Positions 3,301 through 15,518 of a stretch of DNA of 41,172 nt are shown in pieces; the stretch's first letter is position 1; every line of letters begins with the position of its first letter. The position numbers were made by a program, and so were the translations under genes. Origin of the DNA: an uncultured Desulfobacteraceae bacterium (lineage in GTDB: Bacteria > Desulfobacterota > Desulfobacteria > Desulfobacterales > Desulfatirhabdiaceae); assembly GCA_903839535.1 (NCBI GenBank), contig CAIMCT010000397.1, forward strand, positions 1-41,172, in the 5' to 3' direction. The notes below the pieces were generated by a model. It ran no database searches and was not told where the DNA came from. It saw only the letters and a program-made list of their open reading frames with translations.

Positions 3301-4221
3301 CTATTTATCCGCTCCCAGAATAACGGGCAAACCGTTTTCACCGTTTCCGATGACCACTACCTTGGCATTGGGGGATAGGGCGATGTTCTCGGTGGCGATG
3401 ATTCCCTTCCATTTAAGCATCTCTGGCGTAAGGGACGCGTTGATCAGATCGTTATAGTTTTTGATCCCCGTGGCTTCAATGCTCTTTCTCTCTGCTTCCT
3501 GCTTCTCCCGTTGCAGCTTGAATTCATAAGCCAGGGCCAGGTGTTTTTCCTGCACTTTATTCTCGATGGCTTGTTTGACGCTTTCCGGTAAAGTGATTTT
3601 TTTAATGAGTACATCATCAATCTGTACATAGCGCTGGGAAACTTTTTCGATGGCCTGGTTTACGGTGGATTCCAGGATGAATGTGGGCGCTGTATAAAGC
3701 TCTTCAGCGCTCATTTTGCCGAGATTAGTCCGGATTACGGATTCGACTTCCGGAATAACGATGGCATTGATGTAGTCAGGGCCTACATGCTGATGCAGCA
3801 TGCCCAGCAGCCCGTAATCCGGATAGCAGATAATGGAAGACTGAATTATGACTTTGAGCCCATCTTTGGTCAGAACTTCATTTTCATGGTGAACCTGCTG
3901 AACCCGGAGATTATAACGATACATAATATCCCATGGCCAGATCAGATGAACCCCCTCTCCATAGACCCTGGTTATTACGGTACCGCCGAAAAAACGACGA
4001 TACAACACCGCAGCTTCTCCCGGCATTACGTTAACCACGATGCTGTTAAACAGATAAGCCAGCAGAAACAGGATTACGAACGCTGCTATCAGCAGATAGG
4101 GTAGATTCCGCCGGGTCCATTTCAGGGCGGCTTCATTGATGCGCTTCGCTCCAATTATCGTCCATTGCTTAGTTGCTTCAAACGCTCTTGTGACGGCTAT
4201 TCGTTTCATTCGTGGTTCCAT
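3301..4221 (-). CDS. SPFH/prohibitin (band 7) family membrane protein
   Basis: The protein has 306 residues. A short basic cytoplasmic leader is followed by one transmembrane segment (about residues 41-62, LPYLLIAAFVILFLLAYLF), then an SPFH/band-7 domain with the typical opening NVMPGEAAVLYRRFFGGT and GEGVHLIWPW. The C-terminal part is charged and helical (EKHLALAYEFKLQREKQEAERK), as in prohibitins and HflC/HflK. Members form ring oligomers in membranes and modulate proteases or microdomains. The ATG at 4221 has no clear ribosome site; Met5 at 4209 is an alternative start. It lies downstream of the peptide exporter on the same strand, separated by a 104-bp palindromic element, so membership in the NRPS transcription unit is uncertain. 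Confidence 0.87.
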   Translation of the reverse strand: MEPRMKRIAVTRAFEATKQWTIIGAKRINEAALKWTRRNLPYLLIAAFVILFLLAYLFNSIVVNVMPGEAAVLYRRFFGGTVITRVYGEGVHLIWPWDIMYRYNLRVQQVHHENEVLTKDGLKVIIQSSIICYPDYGLLGMLHQHVGPDYINAIVIPEVESVIRTNLGKMSAEELYTAPTFILESTVNQAIEKVSQRYVQIDDVLIKKITLPESVKQAIENKVQEKHLALAYEFKLQREKQEAERKSIEATGIKNYNDLINASLTPEMLKWKGIIATENIALSPNAKVVVIGNGENGLPVILGADK

Positions 4222-6080: not shown

Positions 6081-6173
6081 ATTCCCCCCTTTGAAAAAGG
6101 GGGGCCAGAGGGGATTTAGGAGGTTATCCACCCGAAAAATCCCCCTCGATCCCCCTTTTCCAAAGGGGGAAGT
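6081..6173. repeat. Inverted-repeat element with CCCCCTTT/AAAGGGGG arms
   Basis: A left arm (6081-6117, ATTCCCCCCTTTGAAAAAGG onward) and a right arm (6137-6172) are near-perfect inverted copies around a 19-bp spacer. A solo right-arm copy occurs at 14562-14600. Together with a shared 32-bp tail (6182-6213), it occupies the region just after the NRPS stop codon. It could act as a transcript hairpin between the NRPS and the exporter; the primary signal is a dispersed repeat. Confidence 0.8.
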
Positions 6174-6223
6174 ATCATGTACATATATGGGGTGATCGAA
6201 TTTAAGAAAGATATAATTATATC

Positions 6224-9200
6224 TTACTCCGTTATATATTTCAGGTAAGTCCGGAATAAAGCGGCATCCGCCGGTGGGCAGACAACACCTGTTCCTGCCA
6301 GATATTTTAATGTATTGCTGCAGCCAAAACGCTGTACAGACAAAGAAGCCGGCAATTCCTTGATGAGCGGTAAAAATGGATACAATGGGTTGTGCGGCTG
6401 CATTTCCAGCTTCGCCACCATCCGCTCACGCCACTGGCTGTCCGGAACAATATCCAGCTTGTATCCGGCCTGCTGCAAACAGCTCAGTATCAACGGAGCA
6501 GGCATGGGATGCGGATTGATGAGATGAAAAATCTTGCCGATGGCATCGGGTTTCAGGGACAACACGACCAGCGCTTTCGCCGCAAAATCAACAGGAGTCA
6601 TGTCTTCATCTGCGTAGCGATCTGAAACCATGTTCAGTTCTATATACCCGCGCAATGACCTTACAAACAGACTTTGCGGGTCGCTAAGGCCACTCTGGCT
6701 ATGGCCGGTGATGCGTCCAGGACGAAAGATTGTAACAGCAAGTCCTTTGTCCCTGGCAGCCAGAACCAGTTTCTCAGCCGCCCACTTGCTCTGGTCATAA
6801 CCGGTTTCAAGGCCTGTCCAGTGGGCAGGCGGGTCCTGTTCGTCAATCCGTGCATCAAATACAGTGTCGTTAGATGCGAAAGATTTTTCGCCACTAACTC
6901 GCCCTTCGTCCTTATCTCGTCCCTCGTTACTCAATCCTTGCAAGCGTTCAGACCCCTCCCCCCAGCGGGGGGAGGTTGGGAGGGGGGAAATGCCGTCATG
7001 CCAACCAATTGCCCTCCCCCCGGCCCCCTCCCGCTGGGAGGGGGAGTGAACGGTTGTCAATCCTTGCCCCTGTTTTGGAAAAACAGAAAGCGTGGATACA
7101 AAATGCAAGCGTTTGGCCGGGCCGATTGTCGCCAGGTTTAAAATCGTTTGTGTTCCAAGTACATTTTCCGCACGAAGCCGTTGGTAGGGTTGTAAAAAAT
7201 CAACGAGCGCGCCGTTATGATAGATCATGTCCAAACGCTGGCCCAGTTCGGAAAACGCCCGAGGATCAAGCCCAAACCAGGGCTTTGCCAAATCCCCCGG
7301 AATGGGCGCTATACGCTTTTCGTATTCGGGATGCCAAAGATCAACGGTCTTTAGTTTGGAGATGAGACGAGCCATACCGTCTTCAGGCCGACTGCAACGC
7401 ACCAGACAATACAGCTTGGCGTTAGTCTGCTCCAGAAGCTCGGCCAGTAAAAATGCGCCCAGAAAACCCGATGCGCCGGTGAGGAAAATCGCACGGGAAT
7501 CTGGCCAGGATTGCGGCCATGGGGGCGGTGTAAAAGACGCATCCAACAACTGGCTGTCAGATTCAGGACCAGGCCCATGTATCTCCTGGCAAGGGGCGAC
7601 AATCTGATTGCCTTTAACGGCACCCTGTTCCTCATTGTGCAGCATGGCCGCAAGCTGTGCAACTGTTGGGTGCAGGAAAATCATTCTGACTGGAATCTCC
7701 TGTTTTAGTTGTTCACAAAGAAGGGTTGACAGCCGGATGGCCTTGAGAGAATTGCCGCCCCAGTCAAAAAAATCTGCCTCCTTGTTCAGCTCTTTTTTAC
7801 CAAGAACCGAGCTAAATGCCTCAAGTAATATCTTTTCCAGATCATTGGATGGCGCAGCAACCTGGTATTGCTTCCGGCTTTCAGATTTTGCGGCGACTGC
7901 AAGCAGTGCTTGACGGTCAATTTTGCCGCTTGGTGTCAACTGCAGCATATCCACGGGGATGATTCTATCCGGCAGACAATACCTTGGTAATCGCTCGGCC
8001 AAGTAGTTTTGCAGGGGGGGGCTGGCATTGAGGCCTGCCCCTACTGTTTGCAGCAGCCTGCCAGTATCCATAACGAACTGAACAAAGGCGAGCAGCTCAT
8101 CGGTTTTCCCATCCGGGGACCATTTCATTACAGCCGCATCTTTGACCTGAGGGTGGCTTCGGAGCACTGATGCAATTTCATTGGGTTCAATCCTGAAGCC
8201 GCGGATCTTGATCTGGTCATCTATCCGGCCCAGGAAAACAAGCTGTCCGTCCGCCCGCCACTTTCCCATATCTCCGGATCGGTAGAGACGCTGGCTATGT
8301 AGATATGGATGAGAAATAAATTTTTCTGCAGTCAGATCTGGCCGGTTCATATATCCTCTTGCCAGCCCGATGCCGGCAATACAGATTTCTCCTGAAACAC
8401 CAATGGGAATGGCCGGTTTATCTTCTGATCCCATAGCCGATACAAGAGCGCCAGAATATCCTTTAGCCAGAAGATAAACAGGAGCGCCAGGCAGGGGCTG
8501 ACCAATGGGAATATCGCCGGCCTCCGTATTAGCCGACGCTCTTGTGGCGGCTACAAGAGCGTTTGAATCTAACCGGTAGATGGCGGCGCAGACAGAGGCT
8601 TCCGTGGGTCCATAAGCGTTAAATACTGTTCTGGCGCGGCTGTGAAAAATCAGATCCTCGGTAATGGCGGCTTCGCCGGCAGTGATCAGAACTCGCAAGG
8701 GAGACATATTCACACGGGGAAGTACATGCAGATAGGCCGGTGGCAAGGTGGCCACTGTTACCCGGTAATCCGCCATAAACCGCAAAAATGTGTATGGGTC
8801 GCGTATCACGGCATCCGGAATCATGACCACGGCTGCTCCGCAAAGAAGGGCCATAAAGATTTCAGACAAGGAAGCATCGAAACCCGGCGAAGCAAATTGT
8901 AGGACCCGGTCATGGGGAAGAATGCCAAAAACATCGATCTGAGTCTGAATCATATTCAGAAAACCATCGTGCTGAATCATGACCCCTTTGGGCTGACCAG
9001 TGGAGCCGCTGGTATAAATGACATACATGAGATCATGAGATTGGCGCAGTTTGGAAGACTGGCAGCACTGGGGTGCGGCGCTCCCGGGATGATGCCGGCC
9101 GAGGAGGATATGTTGTGTGGTCTCCGGTTCTGTCCCCAGTTGATCGGCGGACAAAATGGACTCGGGTATCCGCAATGTCTGAATATGGGGAAATGGTGGA

Positions 9201-12200
9201 AGACGGCTCTCATACGCCGACTCTATCAGGATGATCTGACAATTGCTGTCGGAAATCATGTATTGGATTCTTTGGATCGGGTAATCAGTATCTATGGGCA
9301 AATAAGCGGCCCCGGCTTTTAAAATACCCATAATGGCGATAATTAGTTGCCGGGACCTTCCCAGCATTACGCCTACACAGGTATCGGTCAACGGTAAATC
9401 ATCGTGTCCTTGAAAGCGGGTTCTGAGCATATTAGCCAGCACATTGGCTTCATGATCCAGTTCCCTGTATGTTAGAATCCCATCGGCATCTATAACCGCC
9501 GTGCTATCCGGAAATTGATCCACGGCTCTGGCGAATACATCGGTTAAATGCAGCAAAGACCATTCCTGCACGGGCCGGGACAATGCAGGGGCATTGAAAT
9601 CCACCAGTACCTGCTGCTGCTGGGCTTCGGACAACATCTCCAGTTCATGGATTTTCTTTTGGGGATGGGTGAGGCAATCGGTCAGAAGCCTTTGCCAATG
9701 ATCCGCAACTCGCTGGATCGTATCAGGTGAAAACAGATCCGAGCAATAGGAGAGATTCAAACTTAAGCCATCCAAGCTCTCAATAAATTCAAAGGTCATA
9801 TCAAAACGGCTGGTTCCGGTATCCAACGCTAAATGCTGGATGCTCATATCTTTTGTGGCCGTAGATGTTGGTACATATTGCTGGATGACAACCATCACAT
9901 CAAATACTGGCACCCGGCTTTGATCACGAACCGGCTTCAGCTCATCCACCAATTGATCAAAGGGGTAACGTTGATGCTTGTGGGCCAGAAGAACTGTTTC
10001 TTTGATCTGAGTCGCCAGATCCTCGAATCGCTTCTGGGGGTCAATTGAATCGCGAAGCGTCAGGATGTTGGCGAAAAATCCGACCTGATGCTCCAAATCC
10101 GGATGTGTTCGACCTGAAGCCGCTGTACCCAGGGTAATCTCTGTCTGACCGGTATAGCGATGGAGCAGAACTTTCACAGAGCTGACCAACAGAATGAATG
10201 GCGTGGTCTGATACCTTCCTGCAAGTGTTCTAAGATTCGTAAATACGGACGATTCCAGAGGCAGGCGCAGGGTATGGCCTTTATAAGAAGGCGTAGCCGG
10301 ACGTGGGAAATCCAGAGGAAAATCCAGCGGTTCAGGAAGGGGCAAGAGCTGCGAATGCCAAAACTTTCGGTCCTCGGCATATTGAGAGCCAGCCTCCAAG
10401 CTTTGCTGCCAGAGCGCATAATCCCGGTATTGAATGGACAGGGGAGGCAGATTGGAATGCGATATGCCGATATTTGCTGCATACGCTCTTGTAGCCGGCA
10501 CAAGAGCATCGGCTAAAACAGCCATTTCTTTGGCCAGGATGTCCATGGACCAGGCATCGCAGACAATGTGGTGTGCATGGATAAAGAGAAGGTGCTGGCT
10601 TTTTCCTGTCCGGATCAACATAACCCGAAACAGGGGGCCTGTGGACAGATCAAAAGGTGCAGTGGACAACTGGCGGATCAGGGTTATCGCCGCCTGAACC
10701 GGATTTTCACGGGAGCGCATATCCTCCATTTCCAGTACTGTCTCTGAAGATTGAATGACTTGCCGCGGCTCGCCATCCACCACACGAAACACAGTGCGCA
10801 AGGATTCGTGTCTATCAACTATAAGCTCAAATGCCTGACGTATTAGATTTGGCTCAATTTCGCCATTGAGCCAGAAAGCTCCGGGCATATTATAGGCCGG
10901 TGATTCCGGATTCATGCAATGTAAAACCCATAAACGGCGTTGTGCATGAGATAATGGATAATGGGCCTGAACTGGACCTTGCGTAATTTTATTCAGAACT
11001 TTAGCATCTTTTGATCGCAGCATTTTGGCGATTTCAAAAACTGTGGGATGGGCGAAAATATCCTGCAAACTGATTTCCACACCCATCTCCCGGTGGATGG
11101 CGGAGACCATTCGCATGGCTTTCAGGCTATGACCCCCAAGATCAAAAAAATTTTCATGAATGCCAATGGCAGGACGCTCCAGAATCTGCTGCCAGATTTC
11201 TGCGATTCTGGCCTCGTCTGGTTTGGGAAAATGTGCGGTAGAAGAAATATCTAATGGGGAGCCGCACTGGGGTGCGGCGGTCCCAGGAGAAAGGGCATCA
11301 CAAGGAATACCTGATGGTGGAGAAAAATGGACATCTGTTGTAAGAGCAATTTGCCGGGGATCGGGCAATGCTTTTTTATTGATCTTGCCGTTTGGTGTCA
11401 GAGGCAAGCGCTCCATCTGAACAAAATGAGATGGTATCATATAATCCGGAACAAGTTGACGCAAGAACTCTCGCAAAGCCGGTATGATAGAACGCTGCCC
11501 GCTTTCCGATTCCTGTAGCGCCGGCATCTTGCCGGAAACGAGGGAATGAGAGTACACCAGATAAGCCGCCAGCTCAGGGCCGGTCACTGATCCGGTCCAG
11601 GCAATCACGACCGCATCCCGTATTGGCACACCCGGAAACTGCTTGATATGGCTTTCTATGTCTCCGGTTTCAATACGGTATCCGCGAATTTTTACCTGGT
11701 CGTCGCGCCTGCCCAGACATACCAGCGTACCATCGGGTTGCCAGTACCCAAAATCACCAGTTTTATACAACCGCTTGCCCGGCTCAAACGGATGCTCAAT
11801 AAAAGCCGCCGCGGTCTGCTCCGGCAATTCGAAATAGCCTTGGGCCAGACCCTTTCCAGCGATACATATCTCACCTACTGATCCGATGGGCATCAGGTCC
11901 AGATCCCGCGATAGAACATACACCTGTTCGTTTTTTAAGGGCGATCCAATATTAACGGGGTTTAGGATCGAGGGTCGAGGAGTTGTCAGGGGCGGAACAT
12001 TTTTCGCCCCTATCTCGCCCGTCTCCTCTCGTCTCTCGCTACTCATCAACTGCTGGCTCATGGACCAGATCGTGGCCTCGGTAGGACCGTACACATTAAA
12101 TACCCTGACACTGTCAAAGATCGGCTGAATCCGCTCAAACAAGTCGAGTGGAAGCGGCTCGCCGCCAATCAAAAGAACCTGCAATTGGCGTAAAGCGGCG

Positions 12201-14449
12201 GGAATGCCTGAAGATACAGGATTCTCATTTTCCAGCAGCAACCTGAGGCGCGATGGTGTAAGCTGTAAGGCGGTAATTTCCTGTTCTTGAATGATGTCCA
12301 GAATGCGCTTAGGTTCCCGGATTTCGGCTTCCGGAGAGATCACCACTGTTAGACCAGTCATAAGGCTATTAAGAATTTCCAGTACCGAAATGTCAAAGGA
12401 AATTGTGGTCAGGGCCAGTATCCGGTCCATAGGTTTGAACCCAAACACAGCCGTCATGTTAGCGTTAAAGCTAACCACGTTCTGGTGGGTTACTACGACA
12501 CCTTTGGGCTGTCCGGTCGATCCGGAGGTGTACATCACATAAGCAGGGTCGAGGGCCGAGGGCCGAGGGGTTGTCAGGGGCGAAAAATTTTTCACCCCTA
12601 TCTCGCCCATCGTCCCTTGCTCATCGTCACTCACTGTTTCGGACAGGGCTGCGTCCAGAAAACACACGGCAGTCCCTTCAGGAATGGCGATTCGGGGCGG
12701 AACGGATGAACTTAGGTGGTTGGCCTGGGTGAGCAGCACCTTGCAGCGGCTGTTTGTTAAAATAGCGTCCACACGCTTTTGTGGAAAAGCCGGATCGATG
12801 GGAATATATGCGGCACCGGTGTATAAAATTCCCAAAATAGCAGCAACCATATTTTCGCTGCGATCCAGTAACACACCAACGCGATCTTTGGGTAGAACAC
12901 CGGCAGCCTGTAAATGAGATCCGATTCTTGCCGCCCGAAGATGCAAAATGGAATATGTCAGGGATTGGCCATTGCTTATGATTGCCGGAGCATCTGGCCT
13001 GAGGGCTGCCTGGGACTCAAATACATCCACAATGGACTGATTCTGAGGATACGGCCAATCAGTTTGATTGAACACTGTCATCAACTGGTTTTTCTCGGAT
13101 TCGGATAAGATGGATATTCTCTTGACATCAATGCCTGGATTTTCCTTGGTTTTGTATGCCAGAACAGATGTTATCATTTCGCGTAGATGATGTTGGATGG
13201 CTTCGATCTGATCAACCGAATACACCCTTGCATTAAAGCGAAATGTGAACCTGATCTGCTCCCCCGGACCAACGGCGATTTCCAGGGGATAGTGGGTCTG
13301 TTCAATGTTTTCGTAGTGTTCAAGTATCAACCGGTCGCTTTGCTCCGGTTGCACTGCTGCCTGTTCAAAGGAATACCTGGAGATATTTGGGTCAAAGGTC
13401 AGTATATGGTCAAACAATCCTTGTTTCAAATGGCTGTTGGCTTGAATATCTGCAAGAGGAAAAAAATGATGTTTCATCCCGGAAGCCATCTGATTCATAA
13501 GCTCTGTCAGAATTTCTGAAAAAAGGCGGTGGCTGGGGGCATGGACCCTTAGTGGCACAGTATTGATAAACAGCCCCACGATATGTTCGACACCTGCAAT
13601 TTCATAAGGCCGACCGGATACGACAATACCAAAAACCACATCTTCCACATCATTGGTTTTTGCCAGCAAAACGGCCCATAGAGCCTGTACCACGATATTC
13701 AGGGTTACCCTGTTTTGGCTAGCCAACTGGCGCAGAGCACAGGTCGTGTCAGCATCCAGAAACATCGAAAAGGTTTTTAGATCATAAGCCTGGGTGGAGG
13801 CTTGTTTCGGAAACGTGGCGAGTTGATCATAACCTTCCAGATAGTTTTTCCAGAATTCGCGGGAGGTGTTCCTGTCCCGTTTTTCCAACCACTCTACAAA
13901 GGTCCGAAATGCTTCCGGTTTCGGAAGGTTTGGATCATTTTGATTGATCTGTCCGCTATAAAGGGCCATTAACTCTTGCTGAAGGATGGGCAAACACCAC
14001 CCGTCCATGATGATGTGGTGAAAACTCCAGACCACACGGAATACAGCATCCCCGGTCTGCAAGACCCGCAGTCGCATCAATACATCACGGGACAGGTCAA
14101 ACGGCGTGCTGCGATCTTTTTGTAGCACGTTCTTAATGGCTTTATGCTGCATTGCTGGATTCATGCTGCGCAGATCCTGGAAAGAGAGATTCAATCGCCT
14201 GTGTTTCAGCACGAACTGAAGCGGTTTGGGTACATGACGATGAATAAAAACCGTGCGCAGAACATCGTGGCGCTGAATCAACTGGTTCCACGCAGTTTCA
14301 AACGCCCCGACATCCAATGCGCCACGAAGGCAATAGGTAATCTGCTGCAAATAGGCTAATGAATTCGGTTCATAAAGGGCGTGAAAAAACAGTCCTTCCT
14401 GCATCGGCGTCAGCGGATAAACTTCTTGAAGATTTTCTTTGCTCAGCAT
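6224..14449 (-). CDS. Dimodular nonribosomal peptide synthetase with terminal thioester reductase (C-A-PCP-C-A-PCP-R)
   Basis: The product has 2741 residues. The chosen start is ATG 14449, preceded by GAGGG at 8 nt; a TTG at 14464 is in frame. Domains in order: C1 (YPLTPMQEGLFFH, HHIIMDGW near 150), A1 (YTSGSTGQPKG near 640, NVYGPTEATIW), PCP1 (LGGHSLKAM near 1110), C2 (HAQRRLWVLH, HHIVCDAW near 1300), A2 (YTSGSTGQPKG near 1815, NAYGPTEASVC), PCP2 (WGGNSLKAI near 2235), and a reductase with TGASGFLGAF near 2330 and catalytic YDQSK near 2560. Pocket residues aligned by eye to GrsA read D-I-L-Q-L-G-V-I-W-K in A1 (glycine type) and D-A-S-T-I-A-A-V-C-K in A2 (Tyr/Phe type). A terminal R domain releases an aldehyde or alcohol with NAD(P)H. 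The leading C domain implies an acyl or peptidyl donor not seen here. Many palindromic repeats sit in frame within linkers. Domain calls are firm; substrate calls are inference. Confidence 0.96.
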   Translation of the reverse strand: MLSKENLQEVYPLTPMQEGLFFHALYEPNSLAYLQQITYCLRGALDVGAFETAWNQLIQRHDVLRTVFIHRHVPKPLQFVLKHRRLNLSFQDLRSMNPAMQHKAIKNVLQKDRSTPFDLSRDVLMRLRVLQTGDAVFRVVWSFHHIIMDGWCLPILQQELMALYSGQINQNDPNLPKPEAFRTFVEWLEKRDRNTSREFWKNYLEGYDQLATFPKQASTQAYDLKTFSMFLDADTTCALRQLASQNRVTLNIVVQALWAVLLAKTNDVEDVVFGIVVSGRPYEIAGVEHIVGLFINTVPLRVHAPSHRLFSEILTELMNQMASGMKHHFFPLADIQANSHLKQGLFDHILTFDPNISRYSFEQAAVQPEQSDRLILEHYENIEQTHYPLEIAVGPGEQIRFTFRFNARVYSVDQIEAIQHHLREMITSVLAYKTKENPGIDVKRISILSESEKNQLMTVFNQTDWPYPQNQSIVDVFESQAALRPDAPAIISNGQSLTYSILHLRAARIGSHLQAAGVLPKDRVGVLLDRSENMVAAILGILYTGAAYIPIDPAFPQKRVDAILTNSRCKVLLTQANHLSSSVPPRIAIPEGTAVCFLDAALSETVSDDEQGTMGEIGVKNFSPLTTPRPSALDPAYVMYTSGSTGQPKGVVVTHQNVVSFNANMTAVFGFKPMDRILALTTISFDISVLEILNSLMTGLTVVISPEAEIREPKRILDIIQEQEITALQLTPSRLRLLLENENPVSSGIPAALRQLQVLLIGGEPLPLDLFERIQPIFDSVRVFNVYGPTEATIWSMSQQLMSSERREETGEIGAKNVPPLTTPRPSILNPVNIGSPLKNEQVYVLSRDLDLMPIGSVGEICIAGKGLAQGYFELPEQTAAAFIEHPFEPGKRLYKTGDFGYWQPDGTLVCLGRRDDQVKIRGYRIETGDIESHIKQFPGVPIRDAVVIAWTGSVTGPELAAYLVYSHSLVSGKMPALQESESGQRSIIPALREFLRQLVPDYMIPSHFVQMERLPLTPNGKINKKALPDPRQIALTTDVHFSPPSGIPCDALSPGTAAPQCGSPLDISSTAHFPKPDEARIAEIWQQILERPAIGIHENFFDLGGHSLKAMRMVSAIHREMGVEISLQDIFAHPTVFEIAKMLRSKDAKVLNKITQGPVQAHYPLSHAQRRLWVLHCMNPESPAYNMPGAFWLNGEIEPNLIRQAFELIVDRHESLRTVFRVVDGEPRQVIQSSETVLEMEDMRSRENPVQAAITLIRQLSTAPFDLSTGPLFRVMLIRTGKSQHLLFIHAHHIVCDAWSMDILAKEMAVLADALVPATRAYAANIGISHSNLPPLSIQYRDYALWQQSLEAGSQYAEDRKFWHSQLLPLPEPLDFPLDFPRPATPSYKGHTLRLPLESSVFTNLRTLAGRYQTTPFILLVSSVKVLLHRYTGQTEITLGTAASGRTHPDLEHQVGFFANILTLRDSIDPQKRFEDLATQIKETVLLAHKHQRYPFDQLVDELKPVRDQSRVPVFDVMVVIQQYVPTSTATKDMSIQHLALDTGTSRFDMTFEFIESLDGLSLNLSYCSDLFSPDTIQRVADHWQRLLTDCLTHPQKKIHELEMLSEAQQQQVLVDFNAPALSRPVQEWSLLHLTDVFARAVDQFPDSTAVIDADGILTYRELDHEANVLANMLRTRFQGHDDLPLTDTCVGVMLGRSRQLIIAIMGILKAGAAYLPIDTDYPIQRIQYMISDSNCQIILIESAYESRLPPFPHIQTLRIPESILSADQLGTEPETTQHILLGRHHPGSAAPQCCQSSKLRQSHDLMYVIYTSGSTGQPKGVMIQHDGFLNMIQTQIDVFGILPHDRVLQFASPGFDASLSEIFMALLCGAAVVMIPDAVIRDPYTFLRFMADYRVTVATLPPAYLHVLPRVNMSPLRVLITAGEAAITEDLIFHSRARTVFNAYGPTEASVCAAIYRLDSNALVAATRASANTEAGDIPIGQPLPGAPVYLLAKGYSGALVSAMGSEDKPAIPIGVSGEICIAGIGLARGYMNRPDLTAEKFISHPYLHSQRLYRSGDMGKWRADGQLVFLGRIDDQIKIRGFRIEPNEIASVLRSHPQVKDAAVMKWSPDGKTDELLAFVQFVMDTGRLLQTVGAGLNASPPLQNYLAERLPRYCLPDRIIPVDMLQLTPSGKIDRQALLAVAAKSESRKQYQVAAPSNDLEKILLEAFSSVLGKKELNKEADFFDWGGNSLKAIRLSTLLCEQLKQEIPVRMIFLHPTVAQLAAMLHNEEQGAVKGNQIVAPCQEIHGPGPESDSQLLDASFTPPPWPQSWPDSRAIFLTGASGFLGAFLLAELLEQTNAKLYCLVRCSRPEDGMARLISKLKTVDLWHPEYEKRIAPIPGDLAKPWFGLDPRAFSELGQRLDMIYHNGALVDFLQPYQRLRAENVLGTQTILNLATIGPAKRLHFVSTLSVFPKQGQGLTTVHSPSQREGAGGRAIGWHDGISPLPTSPRWGEGSERLQGLSNEGRDKDEGRVSGEKSFASNDTVFDARIDEQDPPAHWTGLETGYDQSKWAAEKLVLAARDKGLAVTIFRPGRITGHSQSGLSDPQSLFVRSLRGYIELNMVSDRYADEDMTPVDFAAKALVVLSLKPDAIGKIFHLINPHPMPAPLILSCLQQAGYKLDIVPDSQWRERMVAKLEMQPHNPLYPFLPLIKELPASLSVQRFGCSNTLKYLAGTGVVCPPADAALFRTYLKYITE
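6874..6936. repeat. Diverged copy of the TTTTTCGCCCCTATCTCGCCC repeat inside the NRPS reductase domain
   Basis: The forward text GAAAGATTTTTCGCC, ACTCGCCCTTCGTC and CTCGTTACTCA follows the same order as the copies at 11982-12050 and 12570-12640. In protein it contributes the low-complexity EGRVSGEKSFASND region of the reductase domain, directly adjoining the 116-bp element to its right. It is more degenerate than the two adenylation-domain copies. Confidence 0.6.
6931..7066. mobile_element. 116-bp palindromic element (6941-7056) flanked by a 10-bp direct repeat, inside the NRPS reductase domain
   Basis: TCAATCCTTG occurs at 6931-6940 and again at 7057-7066. Between them is an inverted-repeat element with CGTTCA near one end (6945) and TGAACG near the other (7047-7052), and two oppositely oriented CCCTCCCCCCAGCGGGGGGA-type cores. 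Element plus one direct repeat is 126 bp, exactly 42 codons, so the reading frame survives. It encodes peptides such as SPSQREGAGG and PLPTSPRWGEG, which have no place in a reductase fold. The core matches the intergenic element at 4247-4350. This is best read as an in-frame insertion with target-site duplication. Confidence 0.78.
8011..8044. repeat. GTAGGGGC...GCCCCTAC-type palindrome in the A2 domain tail
   Basis: The arms GCAGGGGGGGGCTGGC and AGGCCTGCCCCTAC form an imperfect inverted repeat. In the protein it gives QTVGAGLNASPPL between the A8 and A10 regions of the second adenylation domain, where other NRPSs have a short loop. Related palindromes lie at 15522-15549 and 22402-22431. Confidence 0.6.
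8435..8452. repeat. Half copy of the ACGCTCTTGT palindrome in the A2 domain
   Basis: The forward text AGCCGATACAAGAGCGCC matches one arm and loop of the palindrome at 8536-8562. In protein it lies in the expanded loop YSGALVSAMGSEDKPA, just before the GEICIAG motif of A2. The single arm suggests a decayed copy. Confidence 0.45.
8536..8562. repeat. Perfect 27-bp palindrome ACGCTCTTGT-N7-ACAAGAGCGT in the A2 domain
   Basis: Two perfect 10-bp arms surround the loop GGCGGCT. The element encodes ALVAATRASA in the loop after the YGPTEASVC motif of the second adenylation domain. Copies occur at 10483-10509 (9 of 10 arm bases, loop near-inverted) and as half copies at 8435-8452 and 15566-15586. Confidence 0.8.
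9062..9087. repeat. GCCGCACTGGGGTGCGGC-type palindrome, copy 1, before the A3 motif of A2
   Basis: The forward text GCAGCACTGGGGTGCGGCG, followed by CTCCCGG, repeats at 11261-11287 with few changes. It encodes PGSAAPQC in the loop preceding YVIYTSGSTG of the second adenylation domain. The core can pair as GC(A/C)GCA with TGCGGC around a CTGGGG loop. Confidence 0.65.
10483..10509. repeat. ACGCTCTTGT palindrome, copy 2, in condensation domain C2
   Basis: The arms ACGCTCTTGT and ACAAGAGCAT (9 of 10 complementary) flank the loop AGCCGGC. The repeat encodes VPATRAYAA in a loop of C2 between the HHxxxD motif and the QYRDYALWQ motif, where typical C domains carry a shorter linker. Confidence 0.75.
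11261..11287. repeat. GCCGCACTGGGGTGCGGC palindrome, copy 2, in the A1-PCP1 linker
   Basis: The stem GCCGCA/TGCGGC with loop CTGGGG is followed by GGTCCCAGG. It encodes PGTAAPQCGSP in the linker between adenylation domain 1 and its carrier protein. It shares the AAPQC peptide with copy 1 at 9062-9087, so both are read in the same frame and orientation. Confidence 0.7.
11967..12050. repeat. In-frame repeat encoding GEIGAKNVPPLTTPRPS in A1 (between motifs A5 and A6)
   Basis: Bases 11982-12020 match 12570-12608 at 36 of 39 positions. They are preceded in both copies by GGGTCGAGG-type text and followed by a CTCGTCTCTCGCTACTC-type tail. The translated insert lies in a loop of the first adenylation domain after NVYGPTEATIW. 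The related but diverged copy is at 6874-6936. Confidence 0.82.
12546..12640. repeat. In-frame repeat encoding GEIGVKNFSPLTTPRPS in A1 (before motif A3)
   Basis: This is the partner of 11967-12050; the 39-bp core at 12570-12608 differs at 3 positions. It is a second insertion in the same adenylation domain, placed just before YVMYTSGSTG. Both copies are read in the same frame and give nearly the same peptide. That argues for a duplicated mobile unit rather than ancestral domain sequence. Confidence 0.82.
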
Positions 14450-14514
14450 TATGTCTGCCCTCAATAATTAATTCAGATGGATGGCCATGATAAAAGAGAA
14501 ACCGCGAATATGTG

Positions 14515-14553
14515 TTACCGTGAAAATACTTTTAAACCACGAAACACACGAAA
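14515..14553. repeat. 39-bp direct repeat flanking the PPTase gene, copy 1
   Basis: TTACCGTGAAAATACTTTTA, continuing into AAACCACGAAACACACGAAA, matches 15480-15518 at 37 of 39 positions in the same orientation. The pair brackets the PPTase gene and its 3' repeat. The CACGAAA-type motif is a common dispersed repeat, so mobility is only one explanation. Confidence 0.78.
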
Positions 14554-14561
14554 ATTTTCAT

Positions 14562-14640
14562 TAAATCCCCCTCGCTCCCCCTTTTCCATAGGGGGAAGTA
14601 GCTTTTTCATATGTGGATTGATCGAATTTTAGAAAGATAC
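14562..14640. repeat. CCCCCTTTTCC repeat with shared tail, downstream of the PPTase gene
   Basis: Bases 14562-14600 match the right arm of the element at 6081-6173. Bases 14608-14639 match 6182-6213 at 28 of 32 positions (CATATGTGGATTGATCGAAT onward). The copy ends 9 nt from the PPTase stop; the other ends 10 nt from the NRPS stop. The two genes thus share a duplicated 3' flank. Confidence 0.75.
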
Positions 14641-14648
14641 GTTTATTG

Positions 14649-15479: not shown

Positions 15480-15518
15480 TTACCATGAAAATACTTTTAA
15501 ACCACGAAAGACACGAAA
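15480..15518. repeat. 39-bp direct repeat flanking the PPTase gene, copy 2
   Basis: TTACCATGAAAATACTTTTA and the following AAACCACGAAAGACACGAAA differ from 14515-14553 at two positions. With copy 1 it marks a 965-bp unit holding the PPTase gene. Confidence 0.78.

Follow-up and report, generated by a model that had tools for sequence, protein, structure and literature searches.

The 41,172-nucleotide stretch of DNA analyzed here (the window) corresponds to contig C397 in the genome (5.66 Mb in 580 contigs) of an uncultured sulfate-reducer-type bacterium. On its minus strand, at positions 6224 to 14464, lies an NRPS gene of 2,746 amino acids with the domain content C-A-PCP-C-A-PCP-R, R being a thioester reductase. 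It adjoins a PPTase-like gene and an ABC exporter of the cyclic-peptide type. The NRPS gene has an 84-bp direct repeat (85%) on either side (6137 to 6220 and 14563 to 14646), and a 39-bp direct repeat brackets the PPTase-like gene (14515 to 14553 and 15480 to 15518). The same-genus genome G006 carries an orthologue (G006:C229, hereafter G006A), a repeat-free, collinear frame of 2,578 amino acids with 70.8% amino acid identity to the window NRPS over 2,517 aligned codons. Over these codons dN is 0.20 and dS is 1.23 (dN/dS, about 0.16), which implies purifying selection on the window NRPS, averaged across both lineages.

The repeats of this gene belong to five families. F1 is about 114 bp and, when folded, forms a long hairpin; the core of F2 is GGGGCGAAAAATTTTTCGCCCC; F3 is TTAGCCGACGCTCTTGTGTCGGCTACAAGAGCGTT, made of two interleaved inverted repeats (AGCCGAC/GTCGGCT and GCTCTTGT/ACAAGAGC); F4 is GCCGCACTGGGGTGCGGC followed by TCCC(A/G)GGA; and F5 is a GTAGGGGC-type palindrome. 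In the window we counted two F3, two F4 and three F2 cores, and none in 100 dinucleotide shuffles of it. Genome-wide, F1 occurs in about 40 or more places, mostly at 81 to 97% identity. F3 gave 42 strand-matches, some sites being counted twice because F3 is palindromic, and these come to 40 distinct places at up to 4 mismatches; F4 gave 85 matches, of which 76 places were classified. F4 commonly forms inverted pairs with F3-like sequence between them, and it occurs as singletons in assembly lines. REPIN-like F4-F3-F4 composites, in which an inverted F4 pair encloses an F3-like core, were seen at L240, L255 and L216. A search for F1 to F5 among known RNA families was fruitless, Rfam returning only RNase P RNA and one tRNA in the window.

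All of the repeat motifs in the NRPS fall within its single 2,746-amino-acid frame. As the original prediction held, every insert keeps the frame. That prediction had also counted at least nine copies from at least four families, at positions that proved exact or within a few bases. Eight copies, from F1 to F4, are firm; a degenerate copy at 8435 and an unclean one at 8011 bring the total to 10 at most. In module 1, F2 copies occupy the loop before motif A3 (12546 to 12638, plus strand) and the loop after motif A5 (11958 to 12045, plus), and an F4 copy lies in the A-PCP linker (11257 to 11296, plus). In module 2, an F3 copy follows HHxxxDxxS downstream, in the variable loop of C domain 2 (10483 to 10516, minus), F4 occupies the loop before motif A3 (9060 to 9096, plus), and F3 occupies the loop after motif A5 (8529 to 8562, plus). 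A domain 2 also holds a degenerate F3 half copy (8420 to 8450, plus), for which blastn found no second copy, and, in its C-terminal part, the F5 palindrome (8008 to 8047, plus). The R domain carries F1 (6942 to 7056, plus) between what we take, from SDR-type R domains, to be the catalytic Ser/Thr region and YxxxK; a partial F2 copy (6864 to 6938, plus) lies beside it in the same loop, and the two jointly encode about 67 amino acids. The same loops thus hold different families in the two modules, and the pre-A3 loop, which takes F2, F4 or another repeat, is also occupied in other NRPS genes.

In an alignment with G006A, each of the eight clear copies falls on a gap, and so the expectation that the inserts would be absent from the closest homologue was borne out in this 70%-identical protein. 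The degenerate half copy of F3 at 8435 is likewise an insertion relative to G006; at the F5 site, G006 has a different sequence of similar length, and there is no clean insertion. A domains from other phyla are also gapped at the inserts, including both F2 copies of module 1. A second NRPS of the same genome, on contig C446, carries about ten inserts that its orthologue in G006 (G006B) lacks, and several of these inserts match the repeats. We found no F3 in the 113 relatives searched and no F4 in six genus mates, and the absence of the families from same-genus genomes implies that their spread is recent. In a 224-kb sample of G006, dispersed repeats of any kind are few, and its assembly lines contain none. 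F4 is common in an order mate, G076, where it is mostly intergenic; in another order mate, G039, several F4 copies are apparently coding, in other genes (L168, L180, L186 and L192).

Structural models placed most of the A-domain inserts on stretches of low confidence. In the AlphaFold (AF2) model of A domain 1, both F2 copies coincide with stretches of pLDDT below 50 (residues 144 to 160 and 347 to 368); further short low stretches (120 to 124, 182 to 184 and 510 to 519) contain no repeats. In the A domain 2 model, the regions of pLDDT below 50 overlap F4 at residues 132 to 165, F3 at its end (340 to 342), the degenerate F3 at 365 to 368 and 370 to 378, and F5 at 500 to 507. Most of F3 (residues 327 to 341) is modeled as a low-confidence helix rather than as plain disorder, which is a point against the reading that tolerant loops and linkers house the repeats. 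The core catalytic motifs seen in the A-domain alignment are kept, and the inserts avoid the conserved cores.

We compared repeat densities on stretches of the genome, with genes called by a home-made hexamer finder (88% coding), a repeat library limited to the intergenic DNA of contigs selected arbitrarily, by number, and a megasynthase set chosen, the window itself excepted, by Condensation domains and not by repeats. The NRPS/PKS genes (88 kb) contained 27 insertions and the other genes (440 kb) contained 8, a 17-fold difference in density (p 6e-15), and inserts were present in 13 of 15 NRPS/PKS genes versus 8 of 374 others; some of the eight inserts in other genes look like wrongly called N termini. 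Without the window, the megasynthases still had 25 repeats in about 80 kb. A control set of 32 other genes of about 880 amino acids or more had 2 repeats in 99 kb, so that repeats are about 15 times as dense in NRPS/PKS genes as in these controls; intergenic DNA carries about 1 repeat per kb. By our reading, megasynthases contain 19 interior coding copies of F3 and F4 genome-wide, or 20 if a PfaD-like gene is counted, and no more than about four lie in other genes. In-frame F3 or F4 was also seen at L202, L212 and L159, in genes of the PUFA-synthase-like kind (KS, AT, tandem ACPs and PfaD-like); these genes stand outside the unbiased density test because they were found through their repeats. 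The predicted concentration in the assembly line is therefore real, but it is not specific to NRPS genes, as repeats also occur in PKS and in PUFA-synthase-like genes.

The same families had also been noted between genes and in an unrelated gene. Besides the intergenic copies, F1 lies in frame in holB, encoding the delta' subunit of DNA polymerase III (L067:3872-3994), with the Walker-A helix on one side and the CxxC cysteine module on the other, where it encodes a peptide nearly identical to that in the NRPS R domain. The example of an unrelated gene offered within the window, at 4182, is a mere 18-bp match (E 0.007). The presence of F1 in an essential-type gene such as holB shows that tolerance is not limited to assembly lines.

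Across C domain 2 as a whole, the window NRPS has 72 to 74% nucleotide identity to G006A and 44 to 49% to the C446 NRPS; at the left flank of F3 this relationship is reversed, with 63% identity to G006A, 84% to C446 and 77% to G006B, the repeat-free orthologue of C446. Diagnostic sites were scored after exclusion of F3 and its unalignable border. Within positions 10439 to 10552, 23 of 24 were C446-like, versus 100 of 535 outside, and the same test against G006B gave 17 of 20; none of 20,000 permutations reached either score (p < 5e-5). To judge from these alignments, this 114-bp stretch (minus strand), which matches the C446 NRPS and not its own orthologue, is a gene-conversion tract that carried F3, flanks included, between two NRPS genes. 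Most simply, the C446 NRPS received the F3 insertion first, and F3 was then copied together with its flanks into the window NRPS, a direction that we infer. No other repeat-containing conversion tract stood out in an all-against-all blastn comparison of the megasynthases. In a separate cluster, on contig C162, tandem NRPS modules are 90% identical (L053:17657-17658 versus L054:3272-4339), and one of them lacks 1,068 nt in frame, fusing the C-terminal part of an A domain to half a C domain. A repeat-mediated origin for this deletion, the one recent in-frame loss that we found, was rejected, as its junction contains no repeat.

Taken together, these results make it likely that selfish, REP/RPE-like repeats, filtered by selection, survive where the loops and linkers of megasynthases tolerate them. 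Several families of short, palindromic, nonautonomous repeats would have spread recently in this genome, and those insertions that kept the frame in flexible loops or linkers would have been tolerated. Repeats would in this way build up in multidomain megasynthases of the NRPS, PKS and PUFA type and be mostly purged from compact genes, as selfish DNA sieved by purifying selection on protein function; the mechanism of tolerance is our inference. At least one repeat would later have moved between NRPS genes, with its flanks, by conversion at a homologous C-domain site. The idea that NRPS linkers are tolerated landing sites came through on both points on which it could have failed, the inserts being absent from a close homologue and their density being far higher than in other genes, long ones included.

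The enrichment could also reflect not loops as such but weaker selection on secondary metabolism. Were assembly lines so dispensable that repeats persisted in them as in decaying genes, with the loops incidental, the spread of the enrichment to PKS and PUFA-like genes would be accounted for, but we consider this unlikely given a dN/dS of about 0.16 over 2,517 codons, the intact core catalytic A-domain motifs and inserts that all keep the frame and that avoid conserved cores. A selected function for the encoded peptides, whether in docking, in flexibility or in regulating the synthetase, seems very improbable. F4 is frequently read as AAPQCG and F3 as ALVxATRA, but each family is read in three phases and both orientations, and these recurrent peptides are partly explained by stops that exclude some frames. 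The peptide is not conserved and no function for it is indicated; moreover, the repeat-free orthologue appears, from the pairwise dN/dS, to be under purifying selection as well.

The original prediction further suggested that the repeats mediate domain recombination. In its strong form, palindromes would cause breaks or supply homology, modules would be exchanged through them, and the repeats would be active drivers of how assembly lines recombine and diversify. In favor of this idea are the tract of some 114 bp by which the window NRPS would have acquired F3 from an NRPS like that of C446 and the tandem duplicates on C162. Against it, the repeats define no domain or module boundary, we saw no repeat-bounded domain swap, the repeat-free G006 gene is collinear with that of the window, the same loops hold different families in two modules and the C162 deletion junction is free of repeats. 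A repeat does lie within the one conversion tract found between NRPS genes; as a single event, it cannot separate the repeat as cause from the repeat as hitchhiker. We therefore regard active recombination by the repeats as distinctly doubtful, and the suggestion is unsupported as originally put. We would offer only as speculation, and with little confidence, the broader notion that palindromic repeats breed in modular assembly lines, where homologous modules allow conversion to spread inserts from gene to gene, palindromes stimulate conversion and selfish repeats help shape NRPS/PKS diversification.

On the preferred reading, that of selfish repeats retained in tolerant loops and linkers, the inserts amount to a map, drawn by nature, of the sites at which NRPS/PKS enzymes tolerate insertions, with up to about 67 residues accepted under strong purifying selection. 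Such maps are directly relevant to assembly-line engineering. The repeats also represent a case of intragenic repeats strongly biased by gene class, and the copying of a repeat between megasynthase genes by gene conversion makes the idea of repeat recombination testable in a concrete instance.

Among known systems, F3 (40 places) and F4 (76 places) resemble REPs and REPINs in being palindromes of 20 to 40 bp present in tens of copies or more, and many F4 copies form inverted pairs at short distance. No GTAG/CGTC end tag is evident in the F3 or F4 consensus, the element ends being only approximate. No RAYT flanked by F1 to F5 was found within the flanks examined. RAYT-like genes occur on contigs C115 (above the cutoff) and C540 (below it), but none of F1 to F5 lies in these flanks, and we found no mobilizing enzyme for the repeats. 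The RAYT-like transposase of C115 appears at L291 as two match pieces about 60 bp apart in one open frame of 1,151 amino acids. For a MITE, we identified no parent IS, and the empty sites available for comparison share only about 70% identity at the protein level, a divergence that would mask target-site duplications.

In-frame insertion of REPs and RPEs is already established (PMC3733652). Di Nocera et al. (2013; PMC3733652) described GTAG/CGTC-tagged REPs within ORFs and discussed modular proteins and flexible regions, stressing DNA synthesis and repair genes; the word "nonribosomal" does not occur there. Like those REPs, the present repeats are short palindromes, mostly intergenic, that form inverted dimers and lie in some cases in frame in genes, and F1 in holB fits the emphasis on DNA repair genes. 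Unlike them, they lie predominantly in megasynthases where they are found within genes. The enterobacterial RU-1/2/3 elements (PMC2759123), small mobile sequences that occur within genes, are likewise small nonautonomous repeats inside reading frames, but they are other families in other hosts, and the abstract of that report states no comparable concentration in a gene class. Searches of a literature without most subscription journals returned nothing relevant on palindromic repeats with NRPS or PKS; the new elements here are how strongly the repeats concentrate in assembly lines and the repeat copy borne by conversion, neither of which we found in that literature.

The parallel to Rickettsia palindromic elements (RPEs) drawn in the original prediction is sound as an analogy and not as membership, the likeness resting on described features rather than on sequence homology. 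Like RPEs, these repeats are palindromic and dispersed, lie both between genes and in frame in functional genes, are absent from orthologues and sit in tolerated positions. They differ in belonging to another lineage, in comprising several unrelated families read in several frames and both orientations and in being concentrated in assembly lines. Recombination and gene conversion between NRPS domains are well known, with short tracts exchanged between homologous domains; unlike those exchanges, the tract described here has a mobile palindrome in its middle.
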